From Paeniroseomonas aquatica (lineage in GTDB: Bacteria > Pseudomonadota > Alphaproteobacteria > Acetobacterales > Acetobacteraceae): 64,000 bases of DNA. The stretch lies in the NCBI RefSeq assembly GCF_030409335.1, contig NZ_JAUFPN010000142.1, positions 1 to 64,000 of the forward strand, in the 5' to 3' direction. Of the stretch, positions 11,169 through 64,000 are shown one piece after another (position 1 is the stretch's first letter; each line of letters begins with the position of its first letter). The position numbers and the translations under genes were made by a program. Under the pieces are notes generated by a model. It was not told the DNA's origin. It did no database searches and saw only the letters and a program-made list of their open reading frames with translations.

Positions 11169-11226
11169 TGGGCTACGGCGGGGTTCTGCGGCGGCAAAGG
11201 CCGCGACGTGCATGGGGGGGCGACCG

Positions 11227-11889
11227 ATGAACCTGATCCTGCTGGGGCCGCCTGGGGCCGGCAAAGGCACCCAGGCGAAGCGACTGGAAGATCGCTACGG
11301 CCTGAAGCAGATCTCGACCGGCGACATGCTGCGGGCCGAGGTCCGGTCCGGCAGCGAGATCGGCCTCCAGGCCAAGGCGGTGATGGAACGGGGCGAGCTG
11401 GTCCCCGATGCCATCATCATCGCCATGCTGGCCGAGCGGGTCGCGCAGCCGGACGTCGCCCAGGGCTTCATCCTGGACGGCTTCCCCCGCACCGTCCCGC
11501 AGGCCGAGGCGCTGGACCTGGTGCTCCGGGACAAGGCCATGCCGCTGCACCACGTGATCGAGCTGCAGGTGGATGACGCGGCATTGGTCGACCGCATCGC
11601 CGGCCGCTTCACCTGCGCCCGGTGCGGGGAGGGCTACCACGACCAGTACAAGCCGCCGGCCCAGGCCGGGGTCTGCGACCAATGCGGCCACACCGGGTTC
11701 ACCCGGCGGGCCGACGACAAGGCGGAGCTGGTGGCGGCAAGGCTCGATGCCTACCACCGCCAGACAGCCCCCTTGCTGCCTTACTACGCCGCCCAGGGGA
11801 TCCTCCGGGTGGTGGACGGCATGGCTGAAATGAACGAGGTCGCGCGCCAGGTGGAAGCGATACTCGGTCCGGTGCCGAAGACGGGTTGA
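11227..11889 (+). CDS. adk: Adenylate kinase (zinc-type LID)
   Basis: 220 residues from ATG 11227. An in-frame ATG at 11212 would prepend five residues, but the poly-G tract at 11214-11220 makes a good ribosome-binding site for 11227. It has the P-loop GPPGAGKGTQ (residues 7-16), the AMP site STGDMLR and the DGFPRT motif. The long LID carries C130-x2-C133 and C150-x2-C153, the four-cysteine zinc site absent from E. coli Adk. It catalyses ATP + AMP = 2 ADP. Confidence 0.98.
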   Translation: MNLILLGPPGAGKGTQAKRLEDRYGLKQISTGDMLRAEVRSGSEIGLQAKAVMERGELVPDAIIIAMLAERVAQPDVAQGFILDGFPRTVPQAEALDLVLRDKAMPLHHVIELQVDDAALVDRIAGRFTCARCGEGYHDQYKPPAQAGVCDQCGHTGFTRRADDKAELVAARLDAYHRQTAPLLPYYAAQGILRVVDGMAEMNEVARQVEAILGPVPKTG

Positions 11890-48135: not shown

Positions 48136-48166
48136 GCTGACCCGGCCCCCTCGGGGCGCTCAGCTC
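48134..48166. terminator. Nested hairpin overlapping both convergent stop codons
   Basis: GAGCTGA (48134-48140) pairs with TCAGCTC (48160-48166), and inside it GCCCC (48145-48149) pairs with GGGGC (48153-48157) around a CTC loop. The stop codons of both convergent genes (48133-48135 and 48160-48162) lie in the stem. Only TT follows on the plus strand, so termination may be partly Rho-dependent. Confidence 0.6.
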
Positions 48167-49194
48167 TTGGCGGCGCTCGGCAGGGCCGAGAGGATCTCGG
48201 CCCGCACCCGCTTCGCCATGCCGCCCCGGTGGGCCGCGTCGTTGGCCGCGATATAGGCCTGCGCCGCGGGGGTCAGCCGGTAGAGCGCCTCCTGCCCCGC
48301 CGGCGGGCGGAAGGCGCGGGCCAGCTTGAGCGCGGCGAGGCCGGCCCGCAGGCCCTGGCCCAGCACCCCGTTGCGGGCGCCCTTCACCTGATAGGCCAGG
48401 AAGCGCGGCATCAGCGCCAGGGCGCCGGTGCCGTATTTCATCCCGATATAGAGCCGGTTGCGGACGAAGTGGAACCAGCGGGTGCCGGACCAGGAGAAGC
48501 GGTGCTCGCCGCTGACCTTGTGCCGCACCGCGATGTCGCCGCGGTAGCGGATGCGCTGGCCGGCATTGATGGCCCGCAGGGCGAAGTCGAACTCCTCCCA
48601 GCAGAAGAACAGGGCGTCGTCGTAGCCGCCGGCGGCCTCGAAATCGGCTCGGCGGATCCCATGGCCGGCGCCGACGAAGGTGACTGCGTCGAAGGCCCCG
48701 GCGGCGCGCGGCAGCAGCGAGGGGGGATAGCCCCAGGAGGAGAGATCCTCCGCCCCGGTGGCGAAGACCTGGATGCGGCAGGCGACGGCGGCGATGTCGG
48801 GCTCGTCGTCCAGCGCCTCGACGGCGCGGGCGAGCGTGTCGGCCGTGGCGAATTCGGCGTCGTTGTCGAGGGCGAAGACACAGCGGCCGGTGCCGAGCGC
48901 GGTGGCCCGGTTGCGGCCGCCGGCGACGCCCCAGTTGCGGTCGAGCCGGACCAGCGTCGCATCCGGCGCGTCCCCCACCGCCGCGGCGAGCAGGGCGAGG
49001 TTCTCCGGCTTGCTGCCCTGGTCGGCGACCCAGACATGCTTGGCCAGGCCGGTCTGGGCCCGGGCGGAGGCGATGGCGGCGATGGTGTCCTCGGCCCGGT
49101 CCAGCGCCAGGATGATCACGTCGGCGTCGGTCCTGCCCGGCGGCCCGGCGGCGCCGGCGACGTGGACCGGCGCGGGATAGGGGCCGAGGCTCAT
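48160..49194 (-). CDS. GT2 glycosyltransferase (rhamnosyltransferase-like)
   Basis: 344 residues from ATG 49194, overlapping the upstream gene's stop (ATGA). GT-A motifs are DVIILALDRAEDTIAAIASA, WVADQGSKPEN, VRLDRNWGVAGGRNRA, FALDNDAEFA (DxD) and FFCWEEFDFALRAI, the ED-type catalytic site of cell-surface-glycan GT2s. No membrane helices are present. It is the third gene of the leftward operon begun by the polyprenyl-phosphate sugar transferase. Confidence 0.88.
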   Translation of the reverse strand: MSLGPYPAPVHVAGAAGPPGRTDADVIILALDRAEDTIAAIASARAQTGLAKHVWVADQGSKPENLALLAAAVGDAPDATLVRLDRNWGVAGGRNRATALGTGRCVFALDNDAEFATADTLARAVEALDDEPDIAAVACRIQVFATGAEDLSSWGYPPSLLPRAAGAFDAVTFVGAGHGIRRADFEAAGGYDDALFFCWEEFDFALRAINAGQRIRYRGDIAVRHKVSGEHRFSWSGTRWFHFVRNRLYIGMKYGTGALALMPRFLAYQVKGARNGVLGQGLRAGLAALKLARAFRPPAGQEALYRLTPAAQAYIAANDAAHRGGMAKRVRAEILSALPSAAKS

Positions 49195-50213
49195 GCCTGG
49201 CCTTCGAAATCCGGCCCGGGCACCGCCAGGTAGGCGATGCGCTTGGCCTCCTGCCGGCCGCGGGTGACCGTGTCCAGGATCAGGCCGCAGGCGAAGGACA
49301 GGAAGGAGAGCAGCACCAGGCCGGTGGCAAGCACCGCCGTCGGCAGCCGCGGCACCAGGCCGGTGGCGATGAAGGTCTGCAGCAGCGGCGCCGCCAGGAT
49401 CAGCGCCAGCAGCAGCAGAAGCGCGCTGGCGGCCGAGAAGAACATCAGCGGCCGCTCGCGCTGCACCAGGGTGACGATGGTCCGCAGGATGCGGAAGCCG
49501 TCGCGGTAGGTGTTCAGCTTGCTGGTGGAGCCGGCCGGGCGCTCCTTGTAGGCGGAGGCGACCTCGCCGACCGGCAGCATCAGCTCGAGCGCATGGACGG
49601 TGAACTCGGTCTCGGTCTCGAAGCCCGAGGCCAGGGCGGGGAAGCTCTTGACGAAGCGGCGGGAAAAGACCCGGTAGCCCGAGAGCATGTCCGAGATGCG
49701 GTCGCCGAAGACCCAGCGGACCATGCCGGTCAGCACCGCGTTGCCGAACTGGTGGCCCGGGCGGTAGGCGGCGGCGGCGATCTCCTCCGGCGTGATGCGG
49801 ATGCCGGTCACCATGTCCAGCCGCTGGGCGAAGAGCTCGCGCAGCATGGCCGGGGCTGCGGCGGCATCGTAGGTGTCGTCGCCGTCGACCAGGACATAGG
49901 CATCGGCCTCGATGTCGGCGAACATCCGGCGGACCACGTGGCCCTTGCCCTGGAGGTTCTCGGTCCGCACCACGGCGCCGGCGGCGCGCGCCGCGGCCAC
50001 CGTGCCGTCCTTCGAGTTGTTGTCGTAGACGTAGACGGCGGCCTGCGGCAGGGCGGCGCGGAAGGCGGCGACCACCCGGGGGACGGCCACCTCCTCGTTG
50101 TAGCAGGGGATCAGGATGGCGATGCGGGGCCGCGCCCCGCCGGCCCCGGGAAGGGGCGCCGGGCGGGGCGCAGCGGTGACGGTGTCGCGTGACAAGGTGT
50201 CGGTGGCGGTCAA
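49191..50213 (-). CDS. GT2 glycosyltransferase with two C-terminal membrane helices
   Basis: 340 residues. RIAILIPCYNEEVAVPRVV, YVYDNNSKDGT and VLVDGDDTYD (DxD) give a GT2 catalytic domain; RISDMLSGYRVFSRRFVKSFP follows. Two hydrophobic helices lie at about residues 255-315. This is the layout of polyprenyl-phosphate glycosyl transferases or membrane-bound EPS glycosyl transferases. It starts 23 bp after the sugar transferase gene and couples to the next GT2 gene. Confidence 0.88.
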   Translation of the reverse strand: MTATDTLSRDTVTAAPRPAPLPGAGGARPRIAILIPCYNEEVAVPRVVAAFRAALPQAAVYVYDNNSKDGTVAAARAAGAVVRTENLQGKGHVVRRMFADIEADAYVLVDGDDTYDAAAAPAMLRELFAQRLDMVTGIRITPEEIAAAAYRPGHQFGNAVLTGMVRWVFGDRISDMLSGYRVFSRRFVKSFPALASGFETETEFTVHALELMLPVGEVASAYKERPAGSTSKLNTYRDGFRILRTIVTLVQRERPLMFFSAASALLLLLALILAAPLLQTFIATGLVPRLPTAVLATGLVLLSFLSFACGLILDTVTRGRQEAKRIAYLAVPGPDFEGQA

Positions 50214-50236
50214 ATGGCGTCTCCGGTGGTTCGGCG

Positions 50237-51754
50237 TCAGCAGGCGTTGCGCATGCGCGCCACGGCCAGCAGGGTCCGGACCAGGATGGTAAGGTCGAGC
50301 CAGGGCGACCAGGTGTCGATATACTCGAGGTCGCTCTCAACCCGTCGGATCAATTTCTCTTCCGTCTCGGTCGGGCCGCGCCAGCCGCGGACCTGGGCCA
50401 GGCCGGTGAGGCCCGGCTTGACCCGGTGGCGGGCGGCGTAGCGGACGGCCACCTCCTCGAAGGGGCGGCCGCCGGCGCGGGTGCCGGGGGCATGCGGGCG
50501 GGGCCCGATGAAGGACATCTCGCCGCGCAGCACGTTCAGGATCTGCGGCAGCTCGTCCAGCGAGGTGCGGCGCAGGATGGCGCCGACCCGGGTGACGCGG
50601 GCATCGCCGGCCGAGACCTGCTTCTTCACCGTGTGGTCGAGGGCGTCGTTGTACATCGTGCGGAACTTCAGCACGTAGAAGTGGGTGTTGTTGAAGCCGG
50701 TGCGGCGCTGGCGGAAGAAGACCGGGCCGGGGCTGTCGAGCTTGATGGCCAGCGCGATGAGCGCCATCGGCGCGGCGGCGACCGCCAGGCCGATGCCGGC
50801 GAGGAGGTAGTCCTCGATGGACTTCACCACCGCGCCCCAGCCGCGGATCGGCCGGTCGGCCAGCCGCAGCAGGCGCAGGCGCTCGGCCTCCGGGCCGGCC
50901 TGGCCGGCGCTGCGATAGGCCATCAGGTCGGGGGCCAGGCGGATGTCCACCGGATAGTCGCCGAACAGCCGCAGCAGGGCCACCAGCCGGGCCTCCGCCG
51001 CCCAGGGCAGCGCGAGGATGATCTGGTCGACCTCGCCGCGGCGGATCATGGCGCAGAGCTGCTCGATCGAGCCGAGGTAGGGCAGGCCGTTGCGGTGGCC
51101 GCGCGGCTGGTGCGGGCGGCGGTCGTCGACCAGCCCGAGCAATTCGATGCTGCGGTCCTGCCGGCCGCGCAGGGCGGCGACGAAGCGGGAGGCCTGCGGC
51201 CCGTCGCCGACCACCACGGCGCGCTGCCGGGTGCGGTCGGCCGCGGCGCGCAGGGCGAGGGCGGCGGCCAGCCGGCCGCTGAGCAGCGGCGGCGTGGCGA
51301 AGGCCAGCCAGAACAGGGCGAGGGCAGGGGGGAAGGAGACCTGGGCGTCGAGCACCATGGCCGCGAGCGACAGCCCGCCGCCGGCCAGGGTGAGCCCGGC
51401 CAGCGCGGCGAGCGCCGCCTTGCGGCTGCCGTAGAGCGCGGCATGGCCGTAGCCGCCGACCACGCCGATCAGGCAGGGGCCGAGCAGCGAGAGGAAGCCG
51501 ATCAGCGCCGCATCCGGCCGGCCGGCCGGCGTCGGCAGGGCCTGCAGCGCGACTCCGGCCGCGGCGATCGCCAGGCCGTCGAGCAGCGCCACCAGGCTGG
51601 CCAGCAGGATCGGCGGCAGCGGCGCCTGCAGCGGATCCTGCCGCCGGGCGGCGGTGCGGGCATCCGCGGCGAAGCGGCCCCAGCCGGCATCCGCCATGGC
51701 GGGGATCAGCTGGCGGGCGCCGGGCCGGGTTTCAGGGGGCATCACGCCGGGCAT
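50237..51754 (-). CDS. Polyprenyl glycosylphosphotransferase (EPS-initiating sugar transferase)
   Basis: 505 residues. There are four N-terminal membrane helices, a Rossmann-like cytosolic domain ([20 protein letters not shown]), then the WbaP/WcaJ-type catalytic domain with [52 protein letters not shown] and [19 protein letters not shown]. It transfers hexose-1-phosphate onto undecaprenyl phosphate to begin the repeat unit. AAGGAG lies 7 nt before the ATG. It is the first gene of a three-gene leftward operon with the two GT2 genes. Confidence 0.93.
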
Positions 51755-51868
51755 GCGATTGCTCCTTTTGAGCAGGGCGCACCGTGGCGCAGGCTTGGGC
51801 TGGGCAGGCCGGGGCGCAGGCTGCCGCAGGGGATCGGGACCAGGGTCTCGGGCATCACGTCCAGGTCC

Positions 51869-52360
51869 TCAGGAGGTCTTGCTGTCGCTGAACACGAAGC
51901 GCCGTGCCAGCAGGAAATTGCCGAGCAAGCCAGCGAGGGAACCCGCCGCGACCCCGAGCACGGGATGCGCTGCGACCAGCGGCACGCTGGCGAGGAGCGC
52001 CGCATAGGTCCCGTAGTTGCAGGCGAAGCCAAGAAGATTGACCAGCAGAAAAAGTCCCCATTGGCGGGCGGCGGCCCGGCCGGCGGGCCGGGCGGCGTCG
52101 CGGAAGGTCCAGGCGCGGTTGAGCGCGAAGGTCGTGCTCGCCGCGGCCAGGTAGGACAGCACCCGGCCGAACCAGGGGCCGGTGCCGAGGGCGATGCCCG
52201 CCACCAGCACGCCGGCATCCACCACGAATCCGGCCACGCCGACCACGCCGAAGCGCAGCAGCTCGCGCCCCATCCGCCGGGCGGACGGGGAGAGCCAGCG
52301 GGCAAGGGCGGTACGAGGACCTTGGGTGGGCGTAACGATGCCGGAAGTGGCGGCGGTCAT
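51869..52360 (-). CDS. GtrA-family membrane protein
   Basis: 163 residues from ATG 52360 (AGGA 8 nt upstream); further upstream in-frame starts are less well supported. There are four hydrophobic helices with the family motifs LLRFGVVGVAGFVVDAGVLV, TTFALNRAWTFRD and GNFLLARRFVFSD. GtrA proteins are thought to flip or hold polyprenyl-phosphate-linked sugars during glycan modification. It lies 114 bp upstream of the sugar transferase gene, in the same direction. Confidence 0.88.
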   Translation of the reverse strand: MTAATSGIVTPTQGPRTALARWLSPSARRMGRELLRFGVVGVAGFVVDAGVLVAGIALGTGPWFGRVLSYLAAASTTFALNRAWTFRDAARPAGRAAARQWGLFLLVNLLGFACNYGTYAALLASVPLVAAHPVLGVAAGSLAGLLGNFLLARRFVFSDSKTS

Positions 52361-53091
52361 GCGGTGCATCCTGAATGCGGATTGCATACGCCGCGACAGG
52401 GTTTCAGACAAACCACGGCGCGGTGACAACGGCTCGCTGATGCCTGGATACACCCAATTTCTCCGTCACTTTTTGCGGCGCAGCATGGGAATGAAGGCAA
52501 GGCGTGCGGCATGCGATCGAGGCTCCTCCGGAACGTGAAGTATGGGACCTGGATGTGACGGAGATGCGGCAGGTCGCAACGCGGAATGTTTCTTGAGTGT
52601 CAATGCTGAATTACACCCATTGGCGCCCGCCGCGCGATCACCGGATGTCGAGCGCCTGTCGCATTTCGGGGAGCGATCATTTCGTTGTTGGTGTCGTCCC
52701 TGCCCGGTCCGCGGATGCGGTTCCGGTTGCAGTGCAGCATGGCCATGCACCCAACGCAAAAGGCGTGACGTTGCAATGAAACTTCGCGTCCTTGGGGAAG
52801 ATTGGCCTTGGCGGCGCCGCCCGCGCCCCGCCCGGCGCTCCGGGCCGCGGCGAGGCCGCCACCGCAGGCCATGCGGCACCGGCGCATCCACCGCGACAGC
52901 GGGCGGCCGAGGCCGGATGGGCCACTGCCGGTTGCGGTGGCGGCACGCACGGCCGCAGCTGAAATTCCCGCCGTCTCCGCAACCTCGGGTCGGACGGCGG
53001 CAAGGCCGCGCCCCGCCGGACGGATTACTGCTTCGCTCCCGCCGGGAATCGGGTAGTTTCTGTACCGTTCCAGCTCCGGGGAGTGTCACGC
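52361..53091. other. 731-bp region without a supportable gene
   Basis: This lies between the divergent gtrA-like gene and the first solute-binding-protein gene. Open frames in it (for example a plus-strand ATG at 52776 and the minus frame 52466-53089) are Arg/Gly/Pro-rich and look like GC-driven noise. The part 52440-52640 is AT-richer (TTGAGT near 52592), compatible with promoters, but no convincing -35/-10 pair was found. Confidence 0.6.
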
Positions 53092-54678
53092 ATGTTCCGA
53101 CGCGGTGTCTTGGGTGGGGCGGCGCTGGCCGGCGCCGCCATGGTCCTGCCGAAGCCCGCCCTGGCGCAGCCCGCGGCGTCGCGGGTGCTGAAATTCATCC
53201 CCCAGGCCAATCTCTCCACCATCGATCCGTTCTGGACCACGGCCTATATCGCCCGCAACCATGCCTACATGGTCTACGACCAGCTCTATGCCGTGGACGA
53301 CGACTACAAGGTCCACCCGGCCGCCGCCGCCGGCCATGTGGTGGAGGACGAGGGCCGCCGCTGGGTCTTCACCCTGCGGCCGGGGCTGCGCTTCCACGAT
53401 GGCGAGCCGGTGCGGGCACAGGACGCGGTCGCCAGCATCCAGCGCTGGGCCCGGCGCGATGCCTTCGGCCAGCGGCTGCTGACCCAGACCGAGGAGATGG
53501 CGGCGCTCGACGACCTGCGCTTCCAGATCCGGCTGAAGAAGCCCTTCCCGATGATGCTGGACGCCTTCGCCAAGGTGACCACGCCCTGCCTCTACATCAT
53601 GCCGGAGCGGGTGGCGCGGACCGACCCCTTCCAGCAGATCACCGACGCGACCGGCAGCGGCCCGTACCGATTCCGCCGGGACGAATGGGTGCCCGGCGCC
53701 AAGGCGGTCTGGGAGCGGAACGCCGCCTACCAGCCCTTCGGCGAGGGCGTGGCGCGCAACACCGCCGGGCCGCATGTGGCGCATTTCGACCGCGTCGAGT
53801 GGCACGTCATCAACGACCCCGGCACCGCCGCGGCCTCGGTCCAGTCGGGCGAGATCGACTGGTGGGAGCAGCCGACGGCCGACCTGTTTCCCTCGCTCGC
53901 CCGCAACCGCAACGTGGTGGTCGAGGTCGCCGACCCCATGGGCCTGATCGGCACCTTCCGGCCGAACCACCTGACCGCGCCCTTCGACAACCCCGCCGTC
54001 CGCCGCGCGGTGCTGACCTGCATCAGCCAGATGGACATGATGACGGCGGTGATCGGCGACGACCCGAAGCTGAAGCGGGACAAGGTGGGCTTCTTCGCCC
54101 CGGCCTCGCCCTTCGGCACCACGGCCGGGCTCGAGGCCTACAGGGGCAGCATCGAGCAGGCGCGGCGGGAGATCCAGGCGGCCGGCGCCATGGGGCAGAA
54201 GCTGGTGCTGATGAACGCCACCGACCTCGCCAGCATCAATGCCTGCGGCCTGGTCGGCGCCGACCTGTTCAAGCGGATGGGCTTCGACGTCGATTACGTC
54301 GCCACCGACTGGGGCACGGTGGTGCAGCGCCGGGCGAGCCGGGAGCCGCTGGAGAAGGGCGGCTGGTCCGGCTTCTTCACCTTCTGGTCGGCGGTCGACC
54401 ACTGGAATCCGGCCGGGCACAACGCGCTGCGCGGCAACGGCGCCCAGGCCTGGTTCGGCTGGCCCGACATCCCCGAGATCGAGCGGCAGCGCGATGCCTG
54501 GTTCGATGCGCCGGATGCCGCCGCGGCCAAGGCGGCGACGGATGCCATCAGCCGCGCCGCCTTCGAGGGCGTGCCCTACGTCCCGACCGGGCAGTACTTC
54601 CAGCCGACCGCCTATCGCCGCAGCCTGACCGGGGTGCTGAAGGGGCCGCCGCTGTTCTGGAACGTCCGCCGCGCCTGA
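53092..54678 (+). CDS. ABC solute-binding protein, family 5 (array member 1)
   Basis: 528 residues from ATG 53092 (GGGGAG 8 nt upstream; a GTG at 53083 is less likely). The RR-type signal FRRGVLGGAALAGAAMVLPKPALAQ suggests Tat export. The SBP_bac_5 hallmark FTLRPGLRFHDGEPVRAQDAVASIQRW is present, then SGPYRFRRDEW and the DWWEQPTADLFPSLARNR pocket region. Such proteins bind di/oligopeptides, nickel, opines or glycosides in the periplasm. It has no permease or ATPase partner in the window. A GC hairpin follows 2 bp after the stop. Confidence 0.9.
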   Translation: MFRRGVLGGAALAGAAMVLPKPALAQPAASRVLKFIPQANLSTIDPFWTTAYIARNHAYMVYDQLYAVDDDYKVHPAAAAGHVVEDEGRRWVFTLRPGLRFHDGEPVRAQDAVASIQRWARRDAFGQRLLTQTEEMAALDDLRFQIRLKKPFPMMLDAFAKVTTPCLYIMPERVARTDPFQQITDATGSGPYRFRRDEWVPGAKAVWERNAAYQPFGEGVARNTAGPHVAHFDRVEWHVINDPGTAAASVQSGEIDWWEQPTADLFPSLARNRNVVVEVADPMGLIGTFRPNHLTAPFDNPAVRRAVLTCISQMDMMTAVIGDDPKLKRDKVGFFAPASPFGTTAGLEAYRGSIEQARREIQAAGAMGQKLVLMNATDLASINACGLVGADLFKRMGFDVDYVATDWGTVVQRRASREPLEKGGWSGFFTFWSAVDHWNPAGHNALRGNGAQAWFGWPDIPEIERQRDAWFDAPDAAAAKAATDAISRAAFEGVPYVPTGQYFQPTAYRRSLTGVLKGPPLFWNVRRA

Positions 54679-54680
54679 CC

Positions 54681-54700
54681 GCCCCCGCCTGACGGGGGGC
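54681..54700 (+). terminator. GC hairpin after array member 1 (weak terminator or processing site)
   Basis: GCCCCC (54681-54686) and GGGGGC (54695-54700) pair around an 8-nt loop, starting 3 bp after the stop of member 1. No T-run follows. It could lower read-through to members 2-5 or stabilise the first message. Confidence 0.35.
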
Positions 54701-54786
54701 ACAACCTCCGGTCCGGCTTGCAGGGGCGGCCGCGCCGGGCTTCACTCCGCGGCAACGGCCGCGAGACGGCTCCGGGGAGACAATCG

Positions 54787-56379
54787 ATGCTTCGACGCAA
54801 CCTATTGGGCGCCGGCGCGGCGGCCGGGGCTTCCAGCCTGCTGCCACGCTTCTCGATCGCGCAGCCGGCGAACAGCCGGGTGCTGCGCTTCATTCCGCAA
54901 TCCGACGTCGGCACGCTCGATCCGATCGTGACCACCGCCTATGTCACGCGGAACCACGCCTTCCTGATCTGGGACACGCTCTACGGCCTGGACGCCGACC
55001 TCAAGCCGCAGCCGCAGATGGTCGAGGGCCATGTGGTCGAGGACGACGGCCGCCGCTGGACCCTGACCCTGCGGCCCGGGCTGAAATTCCACGACGGCGA
55101 GCCGGTGCGTGCGCAGGATTGCGTCGCCTCGATCAAGCGCTGGCAGCGGCGCGACCCGCTGGGCCAGGAGCTGGCGGCCCGGACCGACGACCTGCTGGCG
55201 ACCGACGACCGCACCATCGTCTTCCGGCTGAAGAAGCCCTTTCCGCTGCTGCCGGATGCGCTGGGCAAGGTCGGCACCCCCGTGCCCTTCATGATGCCGG
55301 AGCGGCTGGCCAATACCGACCCCTTCCGCGCGGTGACCGAGTTCATCGGCAGCGGCCCCTTCCGCTTCAAACCCGATGAGCGGGTCCAGGGCAGCCGCTT
55401 CGTCTATGAGCGCTTCGCCGACTACAGGCCGCGCGAGAGCGGCACCCCGGCCTGGACCTCCGGCCCGAAGCGGGCCCTGGTCGACCGGGTGGAGTGGCGG
55501 GTGACGCCGGACAGCGCCACGGCCTCCGCCGCGCTGCAGTCGGGCGAGGTGGACTGGTGGGAGAACCCGCCGAACGACCTGCTGCCGCCGCTGCGCCGGG
55601 CGCGCGACATCGTCATCGACATCCCCGATCCGACCGGGCAGCTCGGCTTCGCGCGCTTCAACCATCTGCACGCGCCCTTCAACAACCCGAAGCTGCGGCA
55701 GGCGCTGCTCGGCGCCATCAACCAGGCAGACTTCATGACCGCGGCCTTCGGCGATACCAAGGGCGCCTGGCGCGACAAGGTCGGCTTCTTCCCCGACGGC
55801 ACGCCCTTCGCCAGCGATGCCGGCATGGCGGCGCTGACCAGCCCGCGCGACCTGGAGAAGGTGAAGCGGGAGGTGGCCGCCAGCGGCTACAAGGGCGAGC
55901 CGGTGGTGCTGCTCGGGGCCACCGACTTCCCCATCATCAATGCCCTCTGCCTGGTCGGCGCCGACCTGTTCAAGCAGGTGGGGCTGAACGTCGACTACGT
56001 CTCCTCCGACTGGGGCACCGTGGTGCAGCGCCGGAACAGCCGGGAGCCGGTGGAGAAGGGCGGCTGGAGCGTCTTCTTCACCTACTGGGCCGGCTTCGAC
56101 ACGCTGGGCCCCGGGGTGAACCAGACGCTGCGCGGCAACGGCACCAACGGCTGGTTCGGCTGGGCGAGCTCCGAGCGGCTGGAGGCCAAGCGGGCCGAGT
56201 GGTTCGACGCGCCGAGCCTCGCCGCGCAGCAGCAGGCGGCGCGGGAGCAGCAGGCGATCGGCTTCGAGGAGGTGCCGGCCCTGCCGCTGGGCCAGGCCTT
56301 CGTGGCGACCGCCTATCGCCGCAACCTGGTCGACCTGCCGAAGGGCCCGCCCTTCTTCTGGAATGCGAGGAAGGTGTGA
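54787..56379 (+). CDS. ABC solute-binding protein, family 5 (array member 2)
   Basis: 530 residues; GGGGAGA lies 7 nt before the ATG. The signal is LRRNLLGAGAAAGASSLLPRFSIAQ (RRNLL, Tat-like). The core LRPGLKFHDGEPVRAQDCVASIKRWQRRD and the later DWWENPPNDLLPPLRRAR align directly with member 1, as does VVQRRNSREPVEKGGWS near the C-terminus. There is no lipoprotein cysteine. It ends 2 bp before member 3, so the two are surely co-transcribed. Confidence 0.9.
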   Translation: MLRRNLLGAGAAAGASSLLPRFSIAQPANSRVLRFIPQSDVGTLDPIVTTAYVTRNHAFLIWDTLYGLDADLKPQPQMVEGHVVEDDGRRWTLTLRPGLKFHDGEPVRAQDCVASIKRWQRRDPLGQELAARTDDLLATDDRTIVFRLKKPFPLLPDALGKVGTPVPFMMPERLANTDPFRAVTEFIGSGPFRFKPDERVQGSRFVYERFADYRPRESGTPAWTSGPKRALVDRVEWRVTPDSATASAALQSGEVDWWENPPNDLLPPLRRARDIVIDIPDPTGQLGFARFNHLHAPFNNPKLRQALLGAINQADFMTAAFGDTKGAWRDKVGFFPDGTPFASDAGMAALTSPRDLEKVKREVAASGYKGEPVVLLGATDFPIINALCLVGADLFKQVGLNVDYVSSDWGTVVQRRNSREPVEKGGWSVFFTYWAGFDTLGPGVNQTLRGNGTNGWFGWASSERLEAKRAEWFDAPSLAAQQQAAREQQAIGFEEVPALPLGQAFVATAYRRNLVDLPKGPPFFWNARKV

Positions 56380-56381
56380 GC

Positions 56382-57974
56382 ATGCAGCGTCGATCCCTGT
56401 TGGCCGGCGTCGCCGGCGCCGCCGCAATCACCCCCGCCTGGCCGCGCTTCGCCATCGGCCAGAACACCGCGGCACGCACCCTGAAGTTCGTCCCCCAGGC
56501 CAACCTCACCAGCCTCGATCCGATCTGGACCACGGCCAACGTCACACGCAACCACGCCTGGCTGGTCTATGACGTGCTCTACGGGATGGATGCGGAGTTC
56601 CAGCCGCAGCCGCAGATGGCCGAGGGGCACAGCGTCGCGGACGACGGCCGGGCCTGGACCTTCACGCTGCGCAGCGGCCTCCGCTTCCACGACGGCGAGC
56701 CGGTGCGGGCCACGGATTGCGTCGCCAGCCTGAAGCGCTGGATGAAGCGCAACTCCAACGGCCAGAAGCTGGAGCCCGTGGTCGACGAGCTGGCGGCGCT
56801 GGACGACCGGCGGCTGCGCTTCAAGCTGAAGCGGCCCTTCCCCCGGCTGCTGGCCTCGCTCGCCAACCCGTCCAACCCGGCCGCCTTCATCATGCCGGAG
56901 CGGATCGCCCGGACCGACCCCTTCCAGCAGATCCGCGAGACGGTGGGCAGCGGGCCGTTCAAATTCCTCGCCAGCGAGTACAACTCCGGCAGCTTCGCCG
57001 CCTATGAGCGGAACGCCGCCTACCAGCCGGCCTCGGGCGCGCCGAGCCTGACCGCGGGGGCGAAGGTCGCCCACTTCGACCGCGTCGAGTGGCACATCAT
57101 CACCGATGCGGCGACCGCCTCGGCGGCGCTGCAGAACGGCGAGATCGACTGGTACGAGCAGCCGCCGCCGGAGATCCAGCAGCTCTTCCGGCGCAACCGC
57201 GCCATCACGGTGGAGGCGATCGACCGCCTGCCCAATCCGGCGGTGCTGCGCTTCAACCACCTGCACCCGCCCTTCAACGACAAGAAGATGCGCCAGGCCC
57301 TCCTGCCGGCGGTCAGCCAGACCGACTACATGACGGCGATCGTGGGTCCCGACCCGGCGCTCTATTCCGACACCATGGGCACCTTCACCCCGGGCACGCC
57401 GCTGGCCAACGACGCCGGGATGGCGGCGCTGACGGGGCCGCGCAGCATCGCCCGCTCCAGGGCGCTGCTGAAGGAGGCCGGCTATACCAACCAGCCCATC
57501 CGGCTGATCGGCCCGACCGACATCCTGGCGCCGGCGGCGATGACCCAGGTGGCGGGCGACATGTTCCGCCAGCTGGATGTGAACCTCGACTTCGTCCTGA
57601 CCGACTGGGGCAGCGTGGTGCAGCGGCGGGCGAGCCGGGAGCCGCTGGAGAAGGGCGGCTGGAGCGTCTTCCTCACCGCCTTCGCCTCCTTCGAATTCGC
57701 CGACCCCTCGGGCAATTTCCCGTTGCGCGGCAATGGCGCGGGCGCCTGGTTCGGCTGGCCGACCATCCCCCGGCTGGAGGAGCTGCGCGACGCCTGGTTC
57801 GACGCGCCGGACCTCGACAGCCAGAAGAAGCTGGCGCGGGAGATCCAGCTCACCATGCTGGACGAGGTGCCCTACATCCCGGTCGGCGCCTATACCTCGA
57901 TGACCTCCTTCCGGCGCAACCTGACGGGGCGGGTGCCGGGCTTCGCGCTGTTCTGGAACATCAGGCGCGGATGA
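56382..57974 (+). CDS. ABC solute-binding protein, family 5 (array member 3)
   Basis: 530 residues with the Tat-like signal QRRSLLAGVAGAAAITPAWPRFAIGQ. The hallmark LRSGLRFHDGEPVRATDCVASLKRWMKR is followed by MPERIARTDPFQQIRETVGSGPFKF and DWYEQPPPEIQQLFRRNR. The pocket segment differs from members 1 and 2 (YEQPPPEIQ against WE-P-DL), which hints at different ligands. It overlaps member 4 by 4 bp (ATGA). Confidence 0.9.
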   Translation: MQRRSLLAGVAGAAAITPAWPRFAIGQNTAARTLKFVPQANLTSLDPIWTTANVTRNHAWLVYDVLYGMDAEFQPQPQMAEGHSVADDGRAWTFTLRSGLRFHDGEPVRATDCVASLKRWMKRNSNGQKLEPVVDELAALDDRRLRFKLKRPFPRLLASLANPSNPAAFIMPERIARTDPFQQIRETVGSGPFKFLASEYNSGSFAAYERNAAYQPASGAPSLTAGAKVAHFDRVEWHIITDAATASAALQNGEIDWYEQPPPEIQQLFRRNRAITVEAIDRLPNPAVLRFNHLHPPFNDKKMRQALLPAVSQTDYMTAIVGPDPALYSDTMGTFTPGTPLANDAGMAALTGPRSIARSRALLKEAGYTNQPIRLIGPTDILAPAAMTQVAGDMFRQLDVNLDFVLTDWGSVVQRRASREPLEKGGWSVFLTAFASFEFADPSGNFPLRGNGAGAWFGWPTIPRLEELRDAWFDAPDLDSQKKLAREIQLTMLDEVPYIPVGAYTSMTSFRRNLTGRVPGFALFWNIRRG

Positions 57975-59545
57975 TCGCCCGGCGGGGACTGCTGGCGGCG
58001 GGGGCGGCGGCGGTCGCCGCACCCGCGGTGGCGCAGCGGGCGAGCGTGCTGCGCTTCGTGCCGCAGGCCGACCTCGGCGGGCTGGACCCGGTGGCGGTCT
58101 CCTCCAACGTCATCCGCAACCATGGCTACATGGTCTGGGACACGCTCTACGGCACCGACAATGCCTTCCGGGTCTTCCCGCAGATGGCCGAGGGGCATGT
58201 CTTCGGCGACGACGACCTGACCTGCACCATCACCCTGCGGCCCGGGCTGGCCTTCCACGACGGCGAGCCGGTGCGGGCCGGGGATTGCGTCGCCAGCATC
58301 GCCCGCTGGATGCGGCGCAGCCCGATGGGCCAGGCCCTGGCGGCGCGCACCGATGCGGTGGAGGTGGTGGACGACCGGCGCTTCCGCTTCCGCCTCAAGC
58401 GGCGCTTCCCGCTGCTGATCGAAGCGCTGGGCGTGCCGGCCAACCCTTCGCTGTTCATCATGCCGGAGCGGCTGGCGAAGACCGATCCCTTCCAGCAGAT
58501 CCGCGAGCCCATCGGCAGCGGCCCCTTCCGCTTCCTGATAGACGAGTTCCGCCAGGGCAGCCGCGCGGTCTGGGCCAGGAACGAGGCCTATGTGCCGACC
58601 AGCGGCGGCGGCGCCGGCATGACCGCCGGGCCGAAGGTGGCGCATTTCGACCGGATCGAGTGGGCCATCATCCCCGATGCGGCGACCGCCGCCGCGGCGC
58701 TGATCAACAACGAGGTCGACTGGTTCGAGCAGATGGGGCCGGAGATCCAGCAGCTGCTGGGGCGCAACCGGGGCATCCAGCTCGAGCCGATCGACCCGCT
58801 GCCGCTGCCGGGGCAGTTCCGCTTCAACCATCTGCAGCCGCCCTTCGACAATCCAGGCATCCGCCGCGCCTTCCTGCATGCGATCAGCCAGGAGGATTTC
58901 ATGACCGCGATCGTCGGGCCCGACCCGACGAAATTCGAGACCGGCTGCGGCTTCTTCACCCCGAACGGCCCGATGGCGAATGACGAGGGCCTCGGCCCGC
59001 TGCAGGGGCCTCGCAGCATCGAGCGCGCCAGGCAGGCGCTGCGCGAGGCCGGCTACAGGGGCGAGCGGGTGCGGCTGCTCGGCACCACCGACATCAACTC
59101 CACCACGGCGCAGGCGCAGGTGGCGGCCGACCTGCTGCGGCGGCTCGACCTCAACCTCGATGTCGTGCTGACGGATTGGGGGACGGTCGCGCAGCGGCGG
59201 ATGAACAAGGGGCCGCTGGATGCCGGCGGCTGGTCGATCGCCTGCTTCGCCTCCTCAGGCATGGATTTCATCAACCCCATCACCCACAACCAGCTGCGCT
59301 CGGACGGCGCCGCGGCGGCGCCGGGCTGGCCGGACCTGCCGGAGGTGGAGCGGCTGCGGACGGAGTGGCTGGATGCGCCGGACCTCGCTTCGCAGCAGGC
59401 GCTGGCGCGGCGGATCCAGGCGGCGGCGATGGACGGGCTGCCCTATATCCCGACCGGCGCCTACTACTCGATCACGGCGCATCGCCGGAGCCTGGTGGAC
59501 CGGGTGAAGGGTTTCGCGATCTTCTGGGGCATTCGGAGGGCCTGA
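57971..59545 (+). CDS. ABC solute-binding protein, family 5 (array member 4)
   Basis: 524 residues, starting at an ATG that overlaps the stop of member 3. The short signal is IARRGLLAAGAAAVAAPAVAQ. The core LRPGLAFHDGEPVRAGDCVASIARWMRR leads to DWFEQMGPEIQQLLGRNRGIQ, closest to member 3 in the pocket segment. The C-terminal block reads AQRRMNKGPLDAGGWSI, a divergent form of the VQRRASREPLEKGGWS block of its siblings. Confidence 0.9.
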   Translation: MIARRGLLAAGAAAVAAPAVAQRASVLRFVPQADLGGLDPVAVSSNVIRNHGYMVWDTLYGTDNAFRVFPQMAEGHVFGDDDLTCTITLRPGLAFHDGEPVRAGDCVASIARWMRRSPMGQALAARTDAVEVVDDRRFRFRLKRRFPLLIEALGVPANPSLFIMPERLAKTDPFQQIREPIGSGPFRFLIDEFRQGSRAVWARNEAYVPTSGGGAGMTAGPKVAHFDRIEWAIIPDAATAAAALINNEVDWFEQMGPEIQQLLGRNRGIQLEPIDPLPLPGQFRFNHLQPPFDNPGIRRAFLHAISQEDFMTAIVGPDPTKFETGCGFFTPNGPMANDEGLGPLQGPRSIERARQALREAGYRGERVRLLGTTDINSTTAQAQVAADLLRRLDLNLDVVLTDWGTVAQRRMNKGPLDAGGWSIACFASSGMDFINPITHNQLRSDGAAAAPGWPDLPEVERLRTEWLDAPDLASQQALARRIQAAAMDGLPYIPTGAYYSITAHRRSLVDRVKGFAIFWGIRRA

Positions 59546-59549
59546 CGCC

Positions 59550-61127
59550 ATGCAACGACGCAGCCTGATGCAGGCGGGGTTCGCGGCCGCCGCGCTCCCC
59601 GCGCCGGCCTTCTCCCAGGGGGCCGCGGCGCGCACCCTCCGGGTGATCCCGCAGGCCAACCTGACCAGTCTCGATCCGGTCTGGACCACGGCGGTGGTGA
59701 CGCGGAACCACGCCTTCCTCACCTACGACCAGCTCTGCGCCCAGGACGCCAAGGGCGAGATCCAGCCGCAGATGGCGGAGGGCTGGGTCACCGAGCCGGA
59801 TGGCCTGGCCGTGACCTTCACCCTGCGGCCCGGGCTGCGCTTCCACGATGGCGAGCCGGTGCTGGCGCGCGATTGCGTCGCCAGTATCAAGCGCTGGGCG
59901 CGGCGCGACCCCTTCATGCAGGTGCTCTCGGCCCAGGTGGCCGAGGTGGAGGCGCTGGACGACCGGCGCTTCCGCTTCCGGCTGAAGAAGCCGGTGCCGC
60001 TGCTGCTGCTGGCCCTCGGCCAGACGCAATTCCCCTGCTTCATCATGCCGGAGCGCATCGCCCGGACCGATGCCTTCCAGCAGATCCGCGAGCCGATCGG
60101 CAGCGGGCCCTTCCGCTTCCTGAGCGACGAGTGGAACCCCGGGCAACGCTCGGTCTGGGCCAAATTCGACGGCTACGTGCCGCGCGAGGGGGCGGTCGAC
60201 GGCCTCGCCGGCGGGCGGGTGCCGCGGCTGGACCGGGTGGAATGGACCGTCATCACCGACCCCGCGACGGCGGCCAGCGCCATGACCACCGGCGAGCAGG
60301 ACTACTGGGAATATCCGCTGCACGACCTGCTGCCGCTGCTCCGGCGCAACCGCCAGGTGGTGGTGGAGCAACGCCTGCTGGATGGCACCTATGGCATCTG
60401 CCGCTTCAACACGCTGCACCCGCCCTTCGACAACCCGGCCATCCGCCGCGCGGTGGCGATGGCGGTCGACCAGCGGGACTACCTGCGCGCTGTCGCCGGC
60501 AACGAGGCGGGCGGCTGGGAGGCCTGCGAGGGCGTCTTCACCTGCGGCACGCCGCTGGCCAACGAGGCCGGCAGCGAGGTGCTGAAGACGCATGACATCG
60601 ACAAGGCCAAGGCGGCGCTGGCCGCGGCCGGGTACAACGGCGAGAAGGTGGTGCTGGTCGCGCCGGGCGACTATCCGCAGATCAACGCGCTGTCGCTCGT
60701 CACGGCCGATGTGCTGCGCCGGCTGGGGATGAACCTCGAGGTCGTCTCGACCGACTGGGGCACGCTGATCCAGCGGCGGGCAAGCAAGGAGACGGTGGAG
60801 AAGGGCGGCTGGAGCATCATCCACACCACAAGCTCCGGCCAGAGCCTCAGCCTGCCGGTCTTCCACCTGTTCCTCCGCGCCAATGGGCCGCAGGCCTGGT
60901 TCGGCTGGCCGGAGGATGCCGAGATCGAGCGGCTGCGCGCCGCCTGGACCGAGACCGGCGACGCCGCCGAATCGCGTCGCATCGCCGAGGCGCTGAACCG
61001 GCGGGCGATGGAGGTGATGGCCTATGTGCCGCTGGGCTTCTACTGGCAGCCCTCGGCCTGGCGCCGCAACGTGACCGGCGTGTTCAAGTCGCCGGTCACC
61101 GCCTTCTGGAACATGGGCAAGACCTGA
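59550..61127 (+). CDS. ABC solute-binding protein, family 5 (array member 5)
   Basis: 525 residues, starting 4 bp after member 4. The signal is QRRSLMQAGFAAAALPAPAFSQ. The core LRPGLRFHDGEPVLARDCVASIKRWARRD is followed by DYWEYPLHDLLPLLRRNRQVV, which groups it with member 6, and IQRRASKETVEKGGWSI. It carries the same MPERIARTDAFQQIREPIGSGPFRF hinge block as members 3 and 4. Confidence 0.9.
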   Translation: MQRRSLMQAGFAAAALPAPAFSQGAAARTLRVIPQANLTSLDPVWTTAVVTRNHAFLTYDQLCAQDAKGEIQPQMAEGWVTEPDGLAVTFTLRPGLRFHDGEPVLARDCVASIKRWARRDPFMQVLSAQVAEVEALDDRRFRFRLKKPVPLLLLALGQTQFPCFIMPERIARTDAFQQIREPIGSGPFRFLSDEWNPGQRSVWAKFDGYVPREGAVDGLAGGRVPRLDRVEWTVITDPATAASAMTTGEQDYWEYPLHDLLPLLRRNRQVVVEQRLLDGTYGICRFNTLHPPFDNPAIRRAVAMAVDQRDYLRAVAGNEAGGWEACEGVFTCGTPLANEAGSEVLKTHDIDKAKAALAAAGYNGEKVVLVAPGDYPQINALSLVTADVLRRLGMNLEVVSTDWGTLIQRRASKETVEKGGWSIIHTTSSGQSLSLPVFHLFLRANGPQAWFGWPEDAEIERLRAAWTETGDAAESRRIAEALNRRAMEVMAYVPLGFYWQPSAWRRNVTGVFKSPVTAFWNMGKT

Positions 61128-61203
61128 GCCCGGTTGCGTGCCGCCGCCGGCTGGGGCATGGGGGGCGGCGGCCGCTGGAAGAGCCGCCCGGGAGGAACGC
61201 CGC

Positions 61204-62784
61204 ATGCATCGTCGCACCCTGCTGCAGGGCTCGGCCCTGGCCCTGGCGGCCCCGCGCCTGGCCGCGGCCCAGGGCAATGCGCGGACCCTGCGCTTCGTGC
61301 CGCAGGGCAACCTGGCGAACATCGACCCGGTCTGGACCACGACCACGCTGGCCCGCAACCACGGGCTGATGGTCTACGACACGCTGTTCGGCCTCGGCCA
61401 GGACTTCCAGCCGAAGCCGCAGATGGCGGCGGCGCACGAGGTCTCGGCCGATGGGCTGGTGCACAAGGTCACCCTGCGGCCGGAGCTGCGCTTCCACGAC
61501 GGCGAGCCGGTGCTGGCGCGCGACTGCATCGCCTCCATCGCCCGCTGGTCGAAGCGCGACGTGCTCGGCCTGCGGCTGGCGGCGCTGCTCGAGGAGATGC
61601 GCCCCGGCGCCGACGACGCCTTCGAGATCGTGCTGAAGCGGCCCTGGCCGGGGCTGGCCTGGGCGCTCGGCAAGCCCTCCGCCAATATCTGCGCCATCAT
61701 GCCCGAACGGGTGGCGAAGACCGATCCCTTCACCCAGATCACCGACTTCGTCGGCTCCGGCCCCTTCCGCTTCCGCCGCTCGCAATGGGTGCCCGGCAGC
61801 CTCGCCGCCTACGAGCGCTTCGCCGGCTACGTGCCGCGGGACGAGCCGGCGGATTTCCTGGCCGGCGGCAAGCAGGTGCATTTCGACCGGGTGGAATGGC
61901 GGGTGATGCCCGACCCCGCGACCGCCGCCGCGGCGCTGCAGAACAACGAGGTGGACTGGTGGGAGACCCCGCTGGCGGACCTGCTGCCGCTGCTGCGGCG
62001 GAACCGCGACATCGCCATCGAGGTGGTGAACACCGCCGGCGCGCTGGGGATGCTGCGCTTCAACCACCTGCACCCGCCCTTCGACAAGCCGGGCATCCGC
62101 CGCGCCATCCAGGCCGCCATCGACCAGAAGTCCTTCATGCAGGCGGCGCTCGGCGAGGATCCGGCGCTGTGGCAGGTGCCGGCCGGGGCCTTCACCCCGG
62201 GGACGCCGCTGGCCAACGACACCGGGCTCGAGGCCATGACCGCGCCGCGCGACCCGGAGGCGGCGAAGCGGGCGCTGGCGGCGGCGGGCTACCGGGGGGA
62301 GAAGGTGGTCATCCTCTCGCCGACCGACTTCCCGACCATCAATGCCCTGTCCGAGGTGGCGGCGGATACGCTGCGGCGGATCGGCATGGCGGTCGACCTG
62401 CAGTCCATGGACTGGGGCACGCTGGTGCAGCGCCGGACCAAGCGGGAGGCCCCGGACCAGGGCGGCTGGAACATCTTCTGCACCACCTGGGAGGGGCTCG
62501 ACGTCTCGGTGCCCGGCAGCCACCAGCCGATCCGCGGCAACGGCACCGACGGCTGGATCGGCTGGGCGACCAGCCCGCGGCGGGAGGCGCTGCGTGATGC
62601 CTGGTTCGACGCGCCCGACCTGGCCGCCGAGCGCCGCATCGCCGGCGAATTGCAGGCGCTGGTCTGGGAGGAGGCGCCCTTCATCCCGCTCGGGCTGCTG
62701 CGGCCGCCGCAGGCCTACCGGCGCAGCCTAACCAATATCGTCACCGGCGGGCCGCCGCTGTTCTGGAACGTGAAGCGGAGCTGA
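61204..62784 (+). CDS. ABC solute-binding protein, family 5 (array member 6)
   Basis: 526 residues from ATG 61204 (GGGAGGAA 6 nt upstream); the in-frame extension to 61138 is not homologous. The signal is HRRTLLQGSALALAAPRLAAAQ. The core LRPELRFHDGEPVLARDCIASIARWSKRD leads to DWWETPLADLLPLLRRNRDIA. A 76-bp gap separates it from member 5. It ends with the shared C-terminal RRSLTNIVTGGPPLFWNVKR. Confidence 0.9.
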   Translation: MHRRTLLQGSALALAAPRLAAAQGNARTLRFVPQGNLANIDPVWTTTTLARNHGLMVYDTLFGLGQDFQPKPQMAAAHEVSADGLVHKVTLRPELRFHDGEPVLARDCIASIARWSKRDVLGLRLAALLEEMRPGADDAFEIVLKRPWPGLAWALGKPSANICAIMPERVAKTDPFTQITDFVGSGPFRFRRSQWVPGSLAAYERFAGYVPRDEPADFLAGGKQVHFDRVEWRVMPDPATAAAALQNNEVDWWETPLADLLPLLRRNRDIAIEVVNTAGALGMLRFNHLHPPFDKPGIRRAIQAAIDQKSFMQAALGEDPALWQVPAGAFTPGTPLANDTGLEAMTAPRDPEAAKRALAAAGYRGEKVVILSPTDFPTINALSEVAADTLRRIGMAVDLQSMDWGTLVQRRTKREAPDQGGWNIFCTTWEGLDVSVPGSHQPIRGNGTDGWIGWATSPRREALRDAWFDAPDLAAERRIAGELQALVWEEAPFIPLGLLRPPQAYRRSLTNIVTGGPPLFWNVKRS

Positions 62785-62970
62785 GCGCCGGCCGCCGCCG
62801 GTGGCACGCGCCATGCAAGCACCGGGCGGGTTAGGGCAGGGTTCGGGCCGGACCGTCGCCGCGGCCGGAACTTGATGCTGCGCGCCGCTGGCGCGATGCC
62901 CAAGGATGCGGCAGGCTGATGTGAAACCGGGCGGGGTAATCCGTCCGGACTGGGAGCTGAGGGACACGAC

Positions 62971-64000
62971 ATGGATCGCAGGAATTTCCTGAAGGGGACG
63001 GCCGCCGCCGGCCTGGTGGGTGCGTCTGCCGGCCTGGCCGGGCCGGCGCTGTCGCAGGGCGCCGCCGCCCGCACCCTGCGCTTCGTGCCGCAGGCGAATC
63101 TGGCCAATTTCGACCCGATCTGGGGCACCCAGTACGTGGTGCGCAACGGCGCCGCGATGGTCTGGGACACGCTCTACGGCTTCGACGCCGAGCTGAAGCC
63201 GCAGCGCCAGATGGCCGAGGCCGAGCAGGTCTCGGCCGATGGGCTGACCTGGGACTTCCGGCTGCGCCCGGGGCTGAAATTCCACGACGGCAGCCCGGTG
63301 CTGGCCAAGGACGTGGTCGCCAGCCTGACCCGCTGGTCGGCCCGCGACCCGATGGGCCAGATGCTGAAGGCGATCCAGCAGGAGCTGGTCGCGGTCGACG
63401 ACCGCAACGTCCGCTGGGTGCTGAAGAAGCCCTACCCCAAGATGCTGATGGCGCTGGGCAAGAATTCCACGCCGATGGCCTTCATCATGCCGGAGCGGCT
63501 GGCGAAGACCGATCCCTTCACCCAGGTGGCCGAATTCATCGGCAGCGGGCCGATGCGCTTCAAGCGCGACGAGTGGAACCCCGGCGCCCGGGCGGTCTTC
63601 GAGAAATTCGCCGACTACGTCCCGCGCGACGAGCCCAGCTCCTGGCTCGCCGGCGGCAAGCGCATGGGCGTCGACCGGATCGAGTGGCTGGTGATGCCGG
63701 ATGCGGCGACGGCCTCCGCCGCGCTGCAGAACGGCGAGGTCGACTGGTGGGAGAACCCGATCACCGACCTGGTGCCGCAGCTCCGCCGCAACCGCAACCT
63801 CCGCGTCGACATCGCCGATCCGCTCGGCAACATCGGCACCTTCCGGATGAACCACACCACCACGCCCTTCAACGACGTGAAGGCGCGCCGCGCGGTGCTG
63901 ATGGCGATGAGCCAGGAAGACTACATGCGGGCGCTGGTCGGCGACGACGACAAGCTGTGGAAGCCGCTGCCGGGCTACTTCACCCCGGGCACGCCGCTGT
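62971..64000 (+). CDS. ABC solute-binding protein, family 5 (array member 7, cut by window end)
   Basis: The first 343 codons are present; the frame stays open to the window edge. The signal DRRNFLKGTAAAGLVGASAGLAGPALSQ is a consensus Tat motif (RRNFLK). The core LRPGLKFHDGSPVLAKDVVASLTRWSARD is followed by DWWENPITDLVPQLRRNRNL, closest to member 2. GGGAGCTGAGGG lies 9-20 nt upstream of the ATG. It sits 186 bp after member 6, the largest gap in the array. Confidence 0.9.
   Translation, partial: MDRRNFLKGTAAAGLVGASAGLAGPALSQGAAARTLRFVPQANLANFDPIWGTQYVVRNGAAMVWDTLYGFDAELKPQRQMAEAEQVSADGLTWDFRLRPGLKFHDGSPVLAKDVVASLTRWSARDPMGQMLKAIQQELVAVDDRNVRWVLKKPYPKMLMALGKNSTPMAFIMPERLAKTDPFTQVAEFIGSGPMRFKRDEWNPGARAVFEKFADYVPRDEPSSWLAGGKRMGVDRIEWLVMPDAATASAALQNGEVDWWENPITDLVPQLRRNRNLRVDIADPLGNIGTFRMNHTTTPFNDVKARRAVLMAMSQEDYMRALVGDDDKLWKPLPGYFTPGTPL

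Follow-up and report, generated by a model that had tools for sequence, protein, structure and literature searches.

The stretch of DNA considered here, the first 64,000 bases (the window) of the 79,516-base contig C49 of the Paeniroseomonas aquatica genome (G000), ends within a run of seven genes for family-5 solute-binding proteins (SBPs). The analysis indicates that this array is most probably the receptor part of one Dpp-type import operon, in which seven SBPs with distinct ligands are served by a single shared DppBCDF translocator, likely together with SBPs scattered elsewhere in the genome and with a link to the molybdenum hydroxylase genes coxSLM. Confidence in the operon itself is high, whereas that in the hub role of the permease and in the hydroxylase link, both read from sequence, is lower.

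The array and its transporter

The seven genes lie head to tail at 53092-64572, and all of their products match SBP_bac_5 (Pfam PF00496), with E values of 7.6e-52 to 9.5e-67 and domain scores of 177-226 bits against a cut-off of 32.4 (Table 1). The proteins, 524-533 amino acids (aa) long and 46-57% identical to one another, carry an RR pair near the N-terminus and an FHDG(E/S)PV segment in seven of seven cases, and the intergenic gaps are 108, 2, -4, 4, 76, and 186 bp. A preliminary description, made from the letters of the window, had reported seven such head-to-tail paralogues with RR-type N-termini, a common FHDGxPV core, and gaps of -4 to 186 bp, all of which is borne out; that all seven are full length within the window does not hold for SBP 7, which crosses the edge and ends at 64572.

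The same description had found no transporter genes behind the array, which proves to be an artefact of the window edge. When the contig is read past 64000, as had been proposed, the array ends at seven SBPs, and dppB starts 26 bp after SBP 7 on the same strand, followed by dppC, dppD, and dppF (64599-68497), the successive gaps from SBP 7 to dppF being 26, -1, 4, and -4 bp. Two permeases and two ATPases with an oligo_HPY tail, adjacent and on the same strand, make up an importer of the Dpp/Opp type, and a complete dppBCDF directly downstream is what the description itself had held would make this an ordinary, if enlarged, transporter operon; even so, the operon is no routine one. An SBP array devoid of a permease is ruled out by the position of dppBCDF 26 bp past SBP 7. 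Since the transporter lies directly downstream, the suggestions that the proteins serve a distant permease, act as stand-alone chemoreceptors, or store ligands lose their basis.

Conservation of the layout in relatives

Eighty named loci of the Acetobacteraceae/Roseomonadaceae group were fetched with SBP 5 as the query (the best 80 of 109 relatives), so that the SBP 5 class (S5; the classes S1-S7 follow the array positions) is present in all of them by construction, and some represent near-identical strains or metagenome-assembled genomes (MAGs). In 73 of the 80, one or more SBP genes are followed by dppB and then by dppC, dppD, and dppF in this order as far as the contig reaches, all four genes being read in 67; five further loci are cut by a contig end. 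The gene directly before dppB belongs to the SBP 7 class in all 73 loci with dppB. On the same strand, coxS follows dppF at a distance of 94-1201 bp in 66/66 loci that extend at least 800 bp beyond dppF, and coxL follows in 58 of the 65 that extend at least 2300 bp. Array size, counted in the 63 loci with dppB and enough upstream sequence (17 left out), is three SBPs in 11, four in 15, five in 23, six in 6, seven in 5, and eight in 3, and Siccirubricoccus phaeus (L072) has at least nine in an array that stands at the locus edge; the seven SBPs found here are near the top of the range but not unique. Six additional loci (L048-L053) come from the same genomes as six of the named ones, and the 94-record set counts some genomes twice.

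A further 40 loci were collected around relatives of DppB, 20 from a wider-class search (L141-L160) and 20 from family genomes. Among the former, one SBP gene precedes dppB in 16, two precede it in one, and none stands directly before it in three, and no coxSLM match was found in any of the 20. In the family genomes, SBP 7 is the only SBP at some loci, with dppBCDF in L174, L178, and L180 and with coxSLM in L176; others have a pair of SBPs accompanied by coxSLM (L161, L162, and L171-L173), three SBPs (L163 and L164), or longer arrays (L166 and L179). Six of these 20 loci have no coxSLM match (L168, L174, L175, L177, L178, and L180), and two (L167 and L170) have coxS and coxM with coxL absent.

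Age of the array

In a tree of 99 SBPs, built by a quick method with support from the Shimodaira-Hasegawa-like approximate likelihood-ratio test (SH-aLRT) only and with long branches for the orphan members, the array positions form their own cross-genus clades (support 99-100 for S1, S5, S6, and S7), S3 and S4 being sisters (99). SBP 7 clusters with the SBPs that occur singly in simple operons, and locus L179 does not fit neatly into the position classes. Eleven of the 15 clade SBPs scattered elsewhere in the P. aquatica genome fall inside the same 87-row clade as the array (support 82), where they interleave with array members, and four fall outside. Judged from this tree, the array is old, and its positions are old orthologue classes. 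Recent tandem amplification is ruled out: orthologues of a given position are 83-92% identical within the genus (one SBP 3 at 73-74%), versus 46-57% between paralogues. Because the residue patterns differ between positions yet are largely fixed within each across genera, the comparison suggests seven specificities kept apart since before the genera split. The earlier proposal of amplification followed by a change of ligand is supported in so far as the seven share one clade and class-specific residues occur at ligand-anchor columns (see below), but the split is ancient and scattered paralogues interleave. Of the two multi-member pocket classes put forward on short segments, only the SBP 3 and SBP 4 pair is a clade, and the SBP 7 segment reads WENPITDLVP rather than ending in DLLP.

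Residues at the ligand site and fold

The position classes were aligned with members taken from the named loci and the present array (S1-S7, n = 18, 11, 67, 14, 80, 43, and 75), the identity thresholds being our own choice. A first cut-off for class specificity (at least 0.8 in every class) gave zero columns; a looser one (mean of at least 0.88 within a class and at least four residues between classes), set afterwards, gave 12, and seven of these are no more than eight residues away from the positions equivalent to DppA R383 or D436, compared with 34 of 494 columns (p = 2.4e-6). In DppA, R383 holds the ligand carboxylate and D436 the ligand amine (PMC12136057). The clustering of class-specific residues at these anchor sites supports distinct ligands, and our confidence in ligand diversification among the array SBPs is moderate.

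The column of the amine anchor, which adjoins an alignment gap, is Asp or Glu in every aligned sequence of classes S1, S2, S3, S4, S6, and S7, and in the array itself the acid is kept in SBPs 1, 2, 3 (as Glu), 4, 6, and 7; in S5 (n = 80) the column holds Ser in 62, Ala in 8, Asp in 7, and Thr in 3, with Ser in SBP 5 itself. Since the anchor is kept in six positions and not in SBP 5, the six likely take ligands bearing a cationic amine and SBP 5 something else. The equivalent of R383, in a gapped region, is Ala, Pro, or Thr in all seven SBPs, so that the carboxylate anchor gives no support to classical dipeptide binding, although OppA and GsiB also lack that arginine. All seven fall far below the NCBIfam cut-offs for DppA and OppA; against the DppA equivalog cut-off of 1005 bits, SBP 5 scores 47.5 and SBP 7 scores 45.1, and SBP 1 is unlisted.

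SBP 5, the sole member modelled, has the two-lobed cluster C fold in an AlphaFold model with a mean predicted local distance difference test (pLDDT) score of 90.3 (71-row alignment). Its best Foldseek match is 8VDX, followed by YliB/GsiB, AgaA, AapF, and the sialic-acid, DppA/OppA peptide, and NikA nickel receptors; the predicted fold alone names no ligand for SBP 5.

One permease and many receptors

The genome contains 55 SBP_bac_5 matches, 22 of them in the array clade (at least 313 bits; the next scores 91), and a single copy of the array-type permease (661 bits; the next scores 254). Twelve of the 15 scattered clade SBPs have no BCDF-like match in the fetched stretch, some stretches being short at contig ends; two others (L035 and L039) each have one weak, oppositely oriented match, and one (L042) is close to a different importer equipped with an SBP of its own. 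In a congener (G005), 12 of the 16 scattered SBPs were fetched, and 10 of these likewise lack such a match, one of the others lying close to a B and C pair of a different type and one near a weak D-like match. The genus range is 14-31 clade SBPs per genome (eight genomes, one of them 75% complete). Among 150 family genomes, where SBP counts are lower bounds (nine candidates at most being scored in each genome), 89 have the SBP clade and 83 have the permease, every one of the 83 being among the 89 (Fisher p = 1.5e-35, uncorrected for phylogeny). These counts suggest that about 22 binding proteins may share one permease. An SBP_bac_5 match at C42:11966-12946 has an internal TGA stop and is perhaps a decayed copy.

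Twenty genes neighbouring the scattered SBPs were run against Pfam. Neighbours in the same direction include a dimethylformamidase-like gene (4 bp away), an M20 peptidase gene that overlaps its SBP gene, a gene of the polysaccharide deacetylase family (4 bp), a luciferase-like monooxygenase gene (at about 80 bp), and, about 30 bp from one scattered clade SBP (L045, 2566-4815), the large-subunit gene of a second molybdenum hydroxylase. An amidase gene is convergent to another scattered SBP, and the remaining SBPs have neighbours with no obvious link (e.g., a carbonic anhydrase gene and genes that by eye resemble those of ribosomal proteins). Such neighbourhoods would fit small nitrogen-containing nutrients, without being proof of them.

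The hydroxylase behind the importer

The coxSLM trio (69015-72816; 7016-10817 in locus L031) encodes [2Fe-2S], molybdenum-cofactor, and flavin adenine dinucleotide subunits, and the AYRGAGR motif in CoxL marks it as form II. The form I motif (A/S)YRCS(F/L)R is absent from this CoxL, which stays under each of the NCBIfam cut-offs listed (glyceraldehyde dehydrogenase, 669 against 790 bits; CO_dehy_Mo_lg, 663.5 against 991); the missing motif and the latter score rule out a true (form I) aerobic CO dehydrogenase. The activity of form II CoxSLM is called unresolved in a 2026 survey (PMC13240472). Among the 150 family genomes, with coxL accepted at E 1e-300 or better (a threshold that admits a few relatives of 59-65% identity), coxL and the permease occur together in 71, in 45 of which coxL lies on the same strand as the permease, 3.6-5.7 kb downstream. 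Where the array is present, the coxSLM link is strong but not obligatory. The 121-aa protein encoded between dppF and coxS has relatives in 25 of the 80 named loci.

Flanking features

Upstream of the array, the minus strand at 48160-52453 holds sugar-transfer genes, which we take to be GtrA-like, WbaP-like, and two GT2-like genes; the GtrA-like gene has a relative in 52 of the 80 named loci. Farther away, a minus-strand gene pair at 42046-45263 resembles a type I secretion ABC (ATP-binding cassette) ATPase and membrane-fusion protein (translations read by eye), and an unusually long open reading frame of 1914 aa occupies 27204-32948. A search of 51000-64000 against Rfam (e.g., for a molybdenum-cofactor riboswitch) gave no match, and that of the contig beyond the window gave two weak matches only, far below the gathering scores.

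Table 1. Coordinates and assignments of the array, importer, and hydroxylase genes on contig C49.
Feature	Position	Strand	Description
SBP 1 (class S1)	53092..54678	+	528 aa, SBP_bac_5; clades with Roseicella and Neoroseomonas positions
SBP 2 (class S2)	54787..56379	+	530 aa, SBP_bac_5
SBP 3 (class S3)	56382..57974	+	530 aa, SBP_bac_5; class sister to S4
SBP 4 (class S4)	57971..59545	+	524 aa, SBP_bac_5
SBP 5 (class S5)	59550..61127	+	525 aa, SBP_bac_5; without the acidic amine-anchor residue of DppA
SBP 6 (class S6)	61204..62784	+	526 aa, SBP_bac_5
SBP 7 (class S7)	62971-64572 (window holds up to 64000)	+	533 aa, SBP_bac_5; class adjoining dppB
dppB	64599-65540 (past window edge)	+	Permease, BPD_transp_1 (Pfam)
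dppC	65540-66466 (past window edge)	+	Permease; NCBIfam Opp/Dpp/Nik permease models, all below cut-off
dppD	66471-67463 (past window edge)	+	ATPase, ABC_tran and oligo_HPY
dppF	67460-68497 (past window edge)	+	ATPase, ABC_tran and oligo_HPY
121-aa protein	68502-68867 (L031 6503-6868)		Between dppF and coxS; no match in Pfam or NCBIfam
coxS	69015-69518 (past window edge)	+	Molybdenum hydroxylase subunit
coxL	69617-72007 (past window edge)	+	Molybdenum hydroxylase large subunit
coxM	72022-72816 (past window edge)	+	Molybdenum hydroxylase subunit

Discussion

In the proposed arrangement, the seven periplasmic SBPs, the permeases DppB and DppC, and the ATPases DppD and DppF would constitute one importer, in which every SBP would bind small organic ligands of its own and deliver them to the one DppBCDF translocator. 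Most of the 15 scattered clade SBPs probably depend on this permease as well, and the form II CoxSLM, judging from its conserved linkage, probably oxidises the imported compound(s) or their products. A more far-reaching form of this proposal, that a single DppBCDF is the hub for about 22 (14-31 in the genus) ligand-diversified SBPs and feeds a form II hydroxylase, the ligands being small, amine- or amide-bearing, and non-peptide, is put forward tentatively and falls somewhat short of probable. If this proposal holds, it would provide an initial handle on the substrate of form II cox enzymes, and if one permease takes cargo from about 20 receptors, the docking between SBP and permease would be far looser than the usual one-to-one relation. 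The recurrent link of importer and coxSLM would offer a route to the form II substrate through the ligands of the array SBPs.

Several observations weigh against joining array, importer, scattered receptors, and hydroxylase in one system. A consensus scan, which may not suit a GC-rich genome, found no promoter-like site, and no terminator-like site was found on the coding strand (one lies on the opposite strand inside dppF), so that we infer co-transcription of the array and dppBCDF from their spacing. Two of the 80 named loci have class S5 SBPs without a permease although 7 and 10 kb follow, and six of the 150 family genomes, three of them less than 90% complete, have clade SBPs with no detected permease. 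As for the hydroxylase, coxL lies on another contig in 23 of the 71 genomes with both genes and farther off on the same contig in three, each of coxL and the permease occurs without the other in 12 of the 150 genomes, and the co-occurrence figures are uncorrected for phylogeny. Seven named loci (L120, L121, L123, L124, L125, L129, and L140) have coxS and coxM with no coxL in between; a search of five of their genomes gave, as the best coxL relatives at other sites, genes of 50-60% identity.

The two loci without a permease are the MAG locus L109, with S5 and S6 at 3659-6726 and no dppBCDF match in the following 7 kb, and L139 (Roseomonas acroporae), with S5 alone at 10001-11584 and none in the following 10 kb. 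Their SBPs have perhaps moved out of, or been left over from, an array.

The array might instead belong to an ordinary di- or tripeptide importer with spare receptors, as in Pseudomonas aeruginosa, whose DppA1-A4 bind di- or tripeptides (PMC12728205), the hydroxylase being an incidental neighbour. Retention of the D436-type acid in six of the seven positions agrees with this, as does the DppD-type ATPase, which is nearest to the NCBIfam dipeptide/oligopeptide ATPases, albeit below cut-off. Against it stand the absence of the R383 equivalent from all seven SBPs (an argument softened by OppA and GsiB), their scores far under the DppA and OppA cut-offs, the dimethylformamidase-like, M20, luciferase-like monooxygenase, and molybdenum hydroxylase genes beside some scattered SBPs, and the invariable presence of coxS (66/66), and we regard a plain peptide importer as unlikely while granting it real weight. 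It is improbable that the array consists of redundant copies retained for gene dosage or differential expression and covering one common ligand range: the seven do share a core fold family and about half of their residues, but identities of 46-57%, class-specific residues concentrated at the ligand-anchor columns, and the close conservation of each position within the genus point to divergent, conserved roles.

It is quite possible, if less than probable, that the array permease serves its seven neighbours only, with the scattered clade SBPs relying on other permeases. The genome holds about 16 further DppB-like loci, one of which (C61:193900) has no SBP_bac_5 gene beside it, four of the scattered SBPs (L042-L045) lie outside the array clade, and S5 SBPs occur apart from any nearby permease in L109 and L139. 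These other permeases are, however, distant in sequence (at most 254 bits, as against 661) and in most cases lie no more than about 6 kb from an SBP_bac_5 gene, and the array-type permease and the SBP clade co-occur across the family, which speaks for the shared permease. The permease gene at C61:193900-194814 would be a possible alternative partner. A function of the array proteins as stand-alone chemoreceptor adaptors or ligand stores is scarcely credible given the complete transporter directly behind the array, here and in the 67 named loci in which all four genes were read.

Comparison with known systems

Searches of titles and the starts of abstracts on Roseomonas, Belnapia, SBPs of Acetobacteraceae, multiple or orphan SBPs, and molybdenum hydroxylases with dipeptide transporters returned no description of this array, subscription papers being mostly outside their reach. 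Orphan SBPs using a distant transporter are reportedly the subject of a paper by Thomas (2010), as its title indicates. Orphan SBPs apart from transporter genes are common, and of 72 ABC gene clusters in R. palustris, 61 have one SBP, nine have two, and one has three (PMC3223731); here about 15 orphans of one clade per genome face a single candidate permease. The protein of known structure most like SBP 5, 8VDX, an SBP of Bordetella bronchiseptica RB50, has the same fold and 42% identity, a likeness of structure and sequence alone. With the form II CoxSLM, or putative molybdenum CO dehydrogenase, of the survey (PMC13240472), the present trio has the three subunits and the AYRGAGR motif in common, and here, in most of the relatives examined, it immediately follows an SBP array with its importer.

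The closest precedent is DppA1-A5/DppBCDF of P. aeruginosa, in which several homologous family-5 SBPs likewise lie beside one dppBCDF with more elsewhere, four near the transporter genes and a fifth at a distance (PMC4206461), as against seven and 15 here, and in which the SBPs have distinct ligand profiles (PMC12728205). In P. aeruginosa the SBPs have retained a Gly-Asp-Asn motif in the pocket, unlike those of the array, and the accessible text on that system mentions no hydroxylase genes, whereas coxSLM stands behind dppF here. In Borrelia burgdorferi, five binding proteins (OppA1-5) also share one transporter system; that system differs in having five SBPs, two permease pairs, and peptide uptake shown to be essential, and belongs to another lineage (PMC5736914). 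The feeding of one DppBCDF by several SBPs is thus an established principle in P. aeruginosa; what differs in the present system is the scale, with seven to at least nine SBPs per operon and about 15 more dispersed, the ancient order of the positions, and the coxSLM tail.

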